Below, one piece after another: positions 16,497 through 18,022 of a stretch of 64,000 nucleotides of DNA. Position numbers and translations under genes: made by a program. Within the stretch, counting starts at the first letter, position 1, and the number at the start of each line of letters is the position of its first letter. The notes under the pieces were generated by a model. That model had not been told where the DNA came from, did no database searches, and worked only from the letters and a program-made list of their open reading frames with translations. The stretch is from NCBI RefSeq assembly GCF_030518155.1, contig NZ_JAULRU010000569.1:186001-250000 (forward strand), in the 5' to 3' direction. The DNA comes from Gilvimarinus gilvus. GTDB taxonomy: Bacteria; Pseudomonadota; Gammaproteobacteria; Pseudomonadales; Cellvibrionaceae.

Positions 16497-16616
16497 CGGC
16501 AGGCGCTAATTCCCTTATTTTAGACTCTCTATCCCCTTGAATTGATTAGACTTAATACAAATTGCAGGGATTTCAGACAAAGCCATTAAAATCTTACTTT
16601 TTTTCGTGGTTGGGGG

Positions 16617-16645
16617 TTGACCAAATCCCGATGGCTCTATAAGAT
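16617..16645 (+). promoter_or_regulatory. Promoter of tRNA-Asn
   Basis: TTGACC at 16617-16622 is followed after 17 bases by TAAGAT (16640-16645; an overlapping TATAAG lies at 16638-16643) and by the discriminator GCGCACC, identical to that of the tRNA-Pro promoter. The tRNA starts about 30 bases downstream. Confidence 0.65.
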
Positions 16646-16675
16646 GCGCACCACTTCCCGAGAGGAAGTTACTGA

Positions 16676-16751
16676 TCCGCCTTAGCTCAGTTGGTAGAGC
16701 AAATGACTGTTAATCATTGGGTCGCTGGTTCGAGCCCAGCAGGCGGAGCCA
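16676..16751 (+). tRNA. tRNA-Asn (GTT)
   Basis: Complete 76-base cloverleaf with encoded CCA. Acceptor stem TCCGCCT/AGGCGGA, anticodon loop CTGTTAA with anticodon GTT, T-loop GTTCGAGCC. It is the only intact tRNA in front of the degenerate tandem repeats. Confidence 0.97.
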
Positions 16752-17520
16752 AATATAAGATGAAGGGGTTATCCAGAGATGGGAAGCCCCTTTTTCGTTG
16801 TATCGCGACACAATGATAAACAACTCTTTAACTTTTAATATTGGGCTGAATCAACGTTTCCGCCTTTTTCTAACCCAGCGGCTGCGCAAAATATAAGATG
16901 AAGGGGTTATCCAGAGATGGGTAGCCCCTTTTTCGTTGCGCGACACAATGATCAACGACTCTTAATCTGTTAATCATTGGCTGAATCAACGATTCAGCCT
17001 AGTTCGAGCCAGCGGCTGCGCCAAATTGAAGATGAGGGGGTTATCCAGAGATGGGAAGCCCCTTTTTCGTTGTTGCGCGGCACAATGATCAACAACTCGT
17101 TAACTGTTAATCATTGGCTGAATCAACGATTCCGCCTAGTTCGAACCCAGCGGCTGCGCCAAATATAAGATGAAGGGGTTATCCAAAGATGGGTAGCCCC
17201 TTTTTCGTTGCGCGACACAATGATCAACGACTCTTAATCTGTTAATCACTGGCTGAATCAGCGATTCAGCCTAGTTCGAGCCCAGCGGCGGAGCCAAATA
17301 TAAGATGAAGGGGTTATCCAGAGATGGGTAGCCCCTTTTTCGTTGTTGCGCGACACAATGATCAACAACTCGTTAACTGTTAATCATTGGCTAAATCAGC
17401 GATTCAGCCTAGTTCGAGCCAGCGGCTGCGCCAAATTGAAGATGAAGGGGTTACTCAGAGATGGGTAGCCCCTTTTTCGTTGCGCGACACAATGATCAAC
17501 GACTCTTAACCTGTTAGTCA
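16752..17520 (+). repeat. Six-copy tandem array derived from tRNA-Asn 3' part plus terminator
   Basis: The terminator hairpin GGGGTTATCC...TAGCCCCTTTTT recurs at 16765, 16903, 17037, 17175, 17310 and 17447 (starts of the GGGG). Successive spacings are 138, 134, 138, 135 and 137 bases. Between terminators each unit keeps pieces of tRNA-Asn: the string ACTGTTAATCATTGG (anticodon loop) in several copies, and GTTCGAGCCCAGC plus an acceptor end and GCCA. The copy ending near 17294 differs from the true tRNA 3' end by one missing base. Two unit types alternate (CGTTGTTGCGCG...CAACAACTC versus CGTTGCGCGAC...CAACGACTC), giving a 272-273-base higher-order period. Each unit also holds small inverted repeats: CAATGAT/ATCATTG, and GGCTGAATC/GATTCAGCC with a 3-base loop at 16979-16999 and 17251-17271. 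Confidence 0.9.
16765..16795 (+). terminator. Rho-independent terminator of tRNA-Asn (repeat copy 1)
   Basis: A 7-base stem (GGGGTTA paired with the complementary GAAGCCCC side, one G-T pair and one mismatch) is followed by TTTTT. It is the first of six near-identical copies spaced about 136 bases apart. Confidence 0.8.
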
Positions 17521-17615
17521 TTGGGCAATAGCGCCTCAACCCAATAACGATAGAGCGCAATGGAGATTCGGCGCAGTTTTGAGGTGTTTATGGACTATCG
17601 GGGCCACCGATGCGT

Positions 17616-17686
17616 CTAGCAGCAACTGTGTTCTAGATTATGATGGGCTTATATGGCTCCCCCGATCTGAACACAGTTGCTGCTAG
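17616..17686. repeat. 18-bp perfect inverted repeat with 35-base loop
   Basis: CTAGCAGCAACTGTGTTC at 17616-17633 is exactly complementary to 17669-17686. The pair could form a long hairpin in the 220-base gap between the tRNA-derived array and ppnP. No T-run follows, so it is not a standard terminator, and no open frame lies inside. Confidence 0.85.
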
Positions 17687-17740
17687 CCAACCAAGTCAAT
17701 TTACGGTAGCCTTCGCGGCCTAATTTAAGAGGGTTTTTAC

Positions 17741-18022
17741 ATGTTTAATGTTAACAATTACTTCGACGGTAAAGTCGCGTCTATTGCGTTCCAAGGTGAA
17801 AAGCTGCCCGCTACAGTCGGTGTTATGGCTCCCGGCGACTATGAGTTTGGCACCAGTCAAAAAGAATATATGTCAGTGATCAGCGGTGCCTTAACGGTAA
17901 AACTGCCAGGCAGCGAACAGTGGGTTACCTATGCCGCAGGCGAGAGCTTTGAAGTCGAAGCCAATCAAAAATTTGGCGTTAAAGTAGCGGCAGATACAGC
18001 TTATATGTGCCTGTATGAGTAA
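17741..18022 (+). CDS. ppnP: Pyrimidine/purine nucleoside phosphorylase
   Basis: Small cupin-fold phosphorylase of 93 residues (formerly DUF1255) that splits purine and pyrimidine nucleosides to base and ribose-1-phosphate. The sequence follows the family from end to end: [36 protein letters not shown] and the C-terminal AYMCLYE. GAGGG lies eight to nine bases before the ATG. It stands alone downstream of the tRNA-Asn repeat and the long inverted repeat, and converges on the TAP-like hydrolase gene 20 bases away. Confidence 0.93.

Follow-up and report, generated by a model that had tools for sequence, protein, structure and literature searches.

Behind an intact tRNA-Asn gene of Gilvimarinus gilvus lies a tandem array of palindromic units that combine an inverted and a direct copy of part of this tRNA with its 3′ end. 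The same architecture is found in two families, and sequence comparison suggests a palindromic repeat that is anchored to the tRNA and constrained, an element that is being maintained and not just a tRNA copy in decay. The pattern of pairing in its hairpins indicates that the element most likely acts as DNA.

Layout and folding of the array

Within the window (the whole stretch of 64,000 nucleotides that was analysed) the tRNA-Asn(GTT) gene is called intact by both ARAGORN and Rfam, and the array extends behind it to 17524. TRF reports a repeat at 16728–17524, with a score of 1345 for period 272 and of 1183 for period 138. The first-pass annotation had described six copies with a period of ∼272 bases. 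This period stands (272–273 bp), but the array consists of five full units of 134–138 bp each and one partial unit. Unit starts at 16751, 16889, 17023, 17161, 17296 and 17433 give spacings of 138, 134, 138, 135 and 137, and a 3-nt indel sorts units 1, 3 and 5 (type A) from units 2, 4 and 6 (type B). The higher-order period of 272–273 bp thus arises because two unit types alternate, as had been proposed. Unit 1 is the most degenerate, with 80–88% identity to the remaining units, and unit 6 stops within hairpin 1. The array is present once in its own genome (a draft of 852 contigs). Its features are:

16676..16751, + strand: tRNA-Asn (GTT), intact; source of the repeated pieces and sole full-length match in its own genome
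16764..16795, + strand: terminator-like hairpin with T-run, the array's first, behind the tRNA gene (read from sequence); the type recurs in every unit
16751..16888, + strand: unit 1, type A, most degenerate (unit alignment)
16889..17022, + strand: unit 2, type B (model R1, 80.0 bits)
17023..17160, + strand: unit 3, type A (model R1, 83.4 bits)
17161..17295, + strand: unit 4, type B, tRNA 3′ end minus one base (model R1, 85.1 bits)
17296..17432, + strand: unit 5, type A (model R1, 77.5 bits)
17433..17524, + strand: unit 6, type B, partial, hairpin 1 and terminator only (unit spacing)
16946..16979, no strand: hairpin 1 of unit 2, CAATGAT...ATCATTG (alignment, folding)
16979..16999, no strand: hairpin 2 of unit 2, GGCTGAATC AAC GATTCAGCC (alignment, folding)
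17116..17136, 17251..17271 and 17389..17409: counterparts of hairpin 2 in units 3–5
17000..17023, + strand: tRNA-Asn 3′-end piece of unit 2, 24 nt (complete pieces have 26 nt)

A full unit is built, in this order, of a terminator-like hairpin and its T-run, then hairpins 1 and 2, and last the 3′ end of tRNA-Asn, which runs from the T-loop to CCA. The 3′ strand of the anticodon stem of the tRNA supplies the direct arm of hairpin 1, and an inverted copy of that strand supplies the opposite arm; in one related genome (G131) this inverted arm is an exact 21-nt complement of the tRNA. Anticodon-loop strings occur in the units and the copy ending near 17294 carries the tRNA 3′ end lacking a single base, both as first described. 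Several units of the window carry an altered tRNA end, and the partial one has none. ARAGORN and Rfam call the first copy only, which agrees with the earlier statement that no downstream copy is an intact cloverleaf and rules out tandem intact tRNA genes. In the window and eight related loci Rfam found tRNA alone above the gathering score, so a known RNA family is ruled out as well.

The hairpin region of units 2–5 is more stably folded than its dinucleotide shuffles, both as DNA on either strand (z −2.5 to −6.4) and as sense RNA (z −3.0 to −4.7). As DNA, the bottom strand reaches −10.4 to −13.8 and the top strand −6.9 to −11.3 kcal/mol. A simple terminator scan scored one of the six terminators of the array (17307–17338) compared to a mean of 1.5 in shuffles, which is not above chance. 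A promoter-like site was found neither inside the array nor, for the bottom strand, at 16560–17760 by consensus scan. Separately, a 71-bp inverted-repeat element with perfect 18-nt arms lies at 17616–17686; four more copies with 97–100% identity occur in the same genome, and the element is MITE-like.

Relatives, paired changes and constraint

A search of relatives, as the first-pass annotation had suggested, turned up this architecture in 9 of the 144 genomes from Cellvibrionaceae, the family of the window, and in 16 of 46 from Alcanivoracaceae (the family of G414). At E 1e-9, model R2 hits 12 of the 144 Cellvibrionaceae genomes, which were then sorted by reading: nine carry units (G000, G006, G007, G010, G011, G050, G055, G130 and G131) and three plain tRNA 3′ fragments (G003, G059 and G107). 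The 16 Alcanivoracaceae genomes match model R1 at E 1e-9, and all 16 were read. A sample of 390 genomes of the order, searched with stricter filters by which weak matches can be lost, yielded nine genomes with units of at least 67 bits (41–43 bits for the tRNA itself), from these two families only; in a class sample of 369 genomes, the window's own genome was the sole R2 match at E 1e-9. Hosts include Gilvimarinus sp. 2_MG-2023, a Marinagarivorans MAG, Cellvibrionaceae bacterium AOL6, Alcanivorax hongdengensis, A. jadensis, Alcanivorax sp. S6407 and Alloalcanivorax mobilis.

In every case where ARAGORN placed a tRNA directly upstream of units, that tRNA was tRNA-Asn. For some copies the tRNA gene is off the locus, due to contig ends in G527, G540 and G050 and to an integrated element separating gene and copy in G131 and in L070. 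The number of units differs between species; only remnants, namely pieces of hairpin 1, are left in G298, G396, G221 and G062, and within the window's own genus G001 and G002 carry no units while G004 has a decayed one (by eye). Since units are absent or remnant in many relatives, the module is dispensable. Among 112 distinct tRNA contexts in the collected loci, a set biased in that 65 of them are tRNA-Asn, interrupted 3′ repeats were found behind tRNA-Asn only: tRNA-Lys cases were rejected as units because they are intact second genes, and tRNA-Thr cases are other tRNA genes.

Several further arrangements were seen at such loci. Two intact tRNA-Asn genes stand in tandem at L140–L144, which come from five genomes of a different genus (g22) in the same family. 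Hairpin 2 and the next tRNA piece up to AGCAGG are identical between L124 and L074, whose hosts belong to two families, reflecting either shared ancestry or transfer. A 55-nt tRNA-Asn 3′ fragment preceded by CAATGA lies behind the tmRNA gene at L127 (G003:C1). L133 and L136 carry a second structured insert behind tRNA-Asn, the outer stem of which uses the tRNA 3′ end. By eye, stems of this insert have changed in pairs between G185 and G448 and the insert resembles rtT; similar strings occur behind tRNA-Asn in L146, L149 and L124.

Compensatory changes in the hairpins had been set beforehand as a test of function, and they were found across species. The alignment holds 36 units, of which 34 are distinct (identical rows were counted once); it omits window units 1 and 6, a truncated third copy in G050 and the units of G011, G130 and G131. 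Both sides have changed in 8 of the 16 stem pairs, in 51 cells, and a one-sided change occurs in one cell. Of the 544 stem cells 94.3% pair, and the 51 cells with changes on both sides compare to a shuffled mean of 11.8: none of 500 shuffles reached the observed number of paired cells, changed cells or the score, while 3 of 500 did so for pairs and 21 of 500 for pair types. When the partner was slid by 1–3 columns as a control, 0–3 cells changed on both sides remained. An earlier set of 21 units had given six such pairs and 32 cells. The structure-model alignment was fitted to the structure of the model and leans towards it; a separate MAFFT alignment was not so fitted.

Both arms of hairpin 1 also track the host tRNA. 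Where the host tRNA-Asn has a different anticodon stem, both arms differ accordingly: among 28 units with a tRNA on the same locus, the direct arm matches the 3′ strand of the anticodon stem in 26, as does the inverted arm in 26, a result that covers TCATT, TCAGT and TCAGC hosts with mutually non-independent units. The last 11 nt are identical to the host tRNA in 19 of the 28 units, by a strict test in which the one-base gap of window unit 4 is a miss. Two hosts have the acceptor strand AAGCGGA, and their units carry AAGCGGA too, followed by GCTA and not GCCA. Where the tRNA has CTGG, 28 of the 36 aligned units, from both families, read CCTAG and the other eight CCTGG.

In genus g122 (Alcanivorax by matching coordinates; seven loci) hairpin 1, of which the apical part is conserved, averages 92% pairwise identity, hairpin 2 86% and the tRNA piece 92%; the 60 nt upstream of the tRNA average 85% and the first terminator 68%. 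Over the 60 nt that follow the array the value is 26%, against 21–24% for shuffled sequence, two of the seven flanks (L073 and L108) being misplaced. Genus g74 (three loci) shows 95% for hairpin 1, 100% for hairpin 2 and the tRNA piece, 96% before the tRNA, 91% for the first terminator and 45% for the 60 nt behind the array. Paired changes, host tracking and hairpins conserved beside an unalignable flank together disfavour plain decay, one of the possibilities raised by the first-pass annotation.

DNA palindrome or RNA

Among the 544 stem cells of the hairpins we counted one G-U, 15 A-C or C-A and 16 other mismatches. The excess of A-C over G-U, collapsed by hand into events because cells are not independent, comes to about 9 versus 3, which is not significant; this count took in inner stems and remnants. 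By folding, the hairpins have 24 wobble pairs among 695 on the top strand and 23 among 701 on the bottom strand, but the terminators 64 among 376 and 6 among 303, respectively. With RNA parameters the hairpins fold better as bottom strand in 26 of 34 cases (seven top, one tie) whereas terminators favour the top strand in 26 of 27; DNA parameters give 22 of 34 and 24 of 27, respectively, and the T-run contained in the terminator stretches may partly account for their asymmetry. Wobble in the hairpins is rare and without strand bias, unlike in the terminators. This pattern fits constraint on DNA better than a sense RNA; on these grounds a sense RNA reading of the hairpins appears disfavoured.

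The reading we tentatively prefer is that of DNA palindrome repeats anchored to tRNA-Asn that would serve as a recombination or attachment-type module at the tRNA 3′ end. The unit, made of the two copies of the anticodon 3′ strand in hairpin 1, hairpin 2, the tRNA 3′ end and the terminator-like hairpin, would be under constraint as a folded single strand or as a palindromic duplex; recombination between the repeated tRNA 3′ ends would multiply and remove units, and template switching might partly keep the hairpin arms matched. The proposal of a role in recombination or attachment rests on the tRNA 3′ end, on copy numbers that differ and on integrase-type genes that occur at like sites: such genes, assigned by eye, adjoin tRNA-Asn 3′ fragments in L070, L128 and L125. 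What counts against this module, besides its dispensability, is that the integrated elements in L070 and L125 occupy a tRNA-type site and not a unit; a recombinase acting on units, a circle or a within-species pair of empty and filled sites was not seen. The three integrase-type genes differ from each other (L070 2405–3439, L128 349–1410 and L125 2–1321) and the fragments beside them start at the anticodon arm. A mobile carrier was rejected: the window array has no match in plasmids, the A. hongdengensis array has a single match in phages, 34 nt of tRNA end, and of three pattern scans of viral contigs one returned a single contig (L070) and two none.

Rather unlikely in our judgement is a small RNA in sense orientation like that of rtT: transcripts that read through from the promoter of tRNA-Asn would contain two hairpins, an unpaired stretch resembling the tRNA 3′ end and an intrinsic terminator, and would act as decoy or sponge. 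Two conserved hairpins followed by a terminator have the look of a small RNA, rttR behind E. coli tyrV is annotated as one, sense folding reaches z −3.0 to −7.3 in seven folded sequences, and the apical conservation of hairpin 1 in g122 agrees with it. Against it speak the hairpins, almost devoid of G-U and lacking the sense bias of the terminators; rtT folds better as sense RNA in all four of its units, and the units here do not. Terminator-like hairpins moreover separate the units of an array in which the consensus scan finds no promoter-like site, and the series of short structured RNAs once proposed is so far not supported. The idea of a terminator battery would explain the terminators, of which the scan scores a single one, but leaves both hairpins unexplained. 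For an antisense RNA to tRNA-Asn from the bottom strand, which we regard as very improbable, one could cite the better folding of that strand with RNA parameters and the tRNA complement in G131; the consensus scan, with no promoter-like site on the bottom strand at 16560–17760, argues against it.

An array without function, in which partial tandem duplications of the tRNA are homogenised through unequal crossing over and through gene conversion with that tRNA, and in which quasipalindrome template-switch mutation keeps the arms matched, seems unlikely. Two reports describe strict Watson–Crick co-change as an outcome of template switching (PMC8604942, PMC7202029), and the changes found here fit this; losses and remnants are common, and intact tRNA-Asn gene pairs occur in tandem at five loci of another genus. 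Gene conversion, suggested already by the first-pass annotation, is plausible for the 3′ end. It leaves unexplained the inner part of hairpin 1, a stretch absent from the corresponding place of the tRNA yet conserved beside a saturated flank, and CCTAG common to units of both families is a further point against a functionless array. That the units are attR scars of integrative elements targeting tRNA-Asn at the anticodon arm is improbable. Their tRNA homology does begin near the anticodon, like that of the fragments by integrase-type genes in G107, G131 and viral contig L070 and of a similar one in G059, 4.6 kb from tRNA-Asn. Those fragments lack hairpin 2 and keep a normal variable loop, whereas in the 36 aligned units hairpin 2 splits the tRNA portion that a scar would carry unmodified, and paired changes would not be expected to persist in scars.

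Comparison with known systems

A literature search, judged on titles and the openings of abstracts, returned no description of this element. REP/BIME and MITE-like palindromes are likewise short, palindromic and intergenic, but in the searches made the array units were seen at tRNA-Asn only and their arms derive from the tRNA. With integron attC sites the units share imperfect DNA palindromes and a bottom strand that folds slightly better; they differ in being tied to tRNA-Asn, and identity with attC was rejected as the six window units lack the GTTRRRY/RYYYAAC consensus boxes. Like the units, the att sites used by tyrosine integrases at tRNA-Asn 3′ ends are directly homologous to the tRNA from its anticodon region through to its 3′ end; the units differ in that they possess an inverted arm, hairpin 2 and their own terminator-like hairpin, with no element between them.

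The closest likeness is to the rtT (rttR) repeats at E. coli tyrT–tyrV, and it goes deeper than first claimed. Judged from sequence, the building plan of the array is that of rtT, while tRNA, sequence and terminators differ. In both, tandem units with a hairpin-rich insert lie directly behind a tRNA gene and end in the tRNA 3′ end (for rtT an exact 19-nt piece was searched for and found), and in both an inverted tRNA 3′ piece forms one arm of a stem whose other arm is the tRNA piece itself. In the sense fold of E. coli K-12 rtT this is a 10-bp closing stem, with the tRNA-Tyr 3′ piece as 3′ arm, the inverted copy as 5′ arm and hairpins between. The E. coli repeats differ in belonging to tRNA-Tyr instead of tRNA-Asn, in their length (successive tRNA ends at tyrV of K-12 are 178 bp apart, compared to about 136 bp here), in their sequence, in a branched fold in place of two hairpins and in their bias towards sense folding; a terminator-like hairpin in each unit is a feature of the array. 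rtT RNA is released in tRNA processing and affects the stringent response. Fourteen ORFs of at least 25 aa overlap the array on both strands, and by eye none could be recognised as similar to Tpr, the protamine-like peptide that E. coli rtT encodes.

It is possible, though somewhat doubtful, that these units belong to a class of DNA elements in which part of the adjacent tRNA is copied both inverted and direct, which stay matched as the host tRNA evolves and which act as folded-DNA modules for recombination or attachment at the tRNA 3′ end, with rtT and the second tRNA-Asn insert as other branches. An inverted arm that tracks the host tRNA is unusual and calls for selection at the DNA level or a strong template-switch process. 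rtT has so far looked like a curiosity of E. coli; with a second case at a different tRNA, in two families and with strong paired changes, the purpose of tRNA-end repeats becomes testable by comparison.
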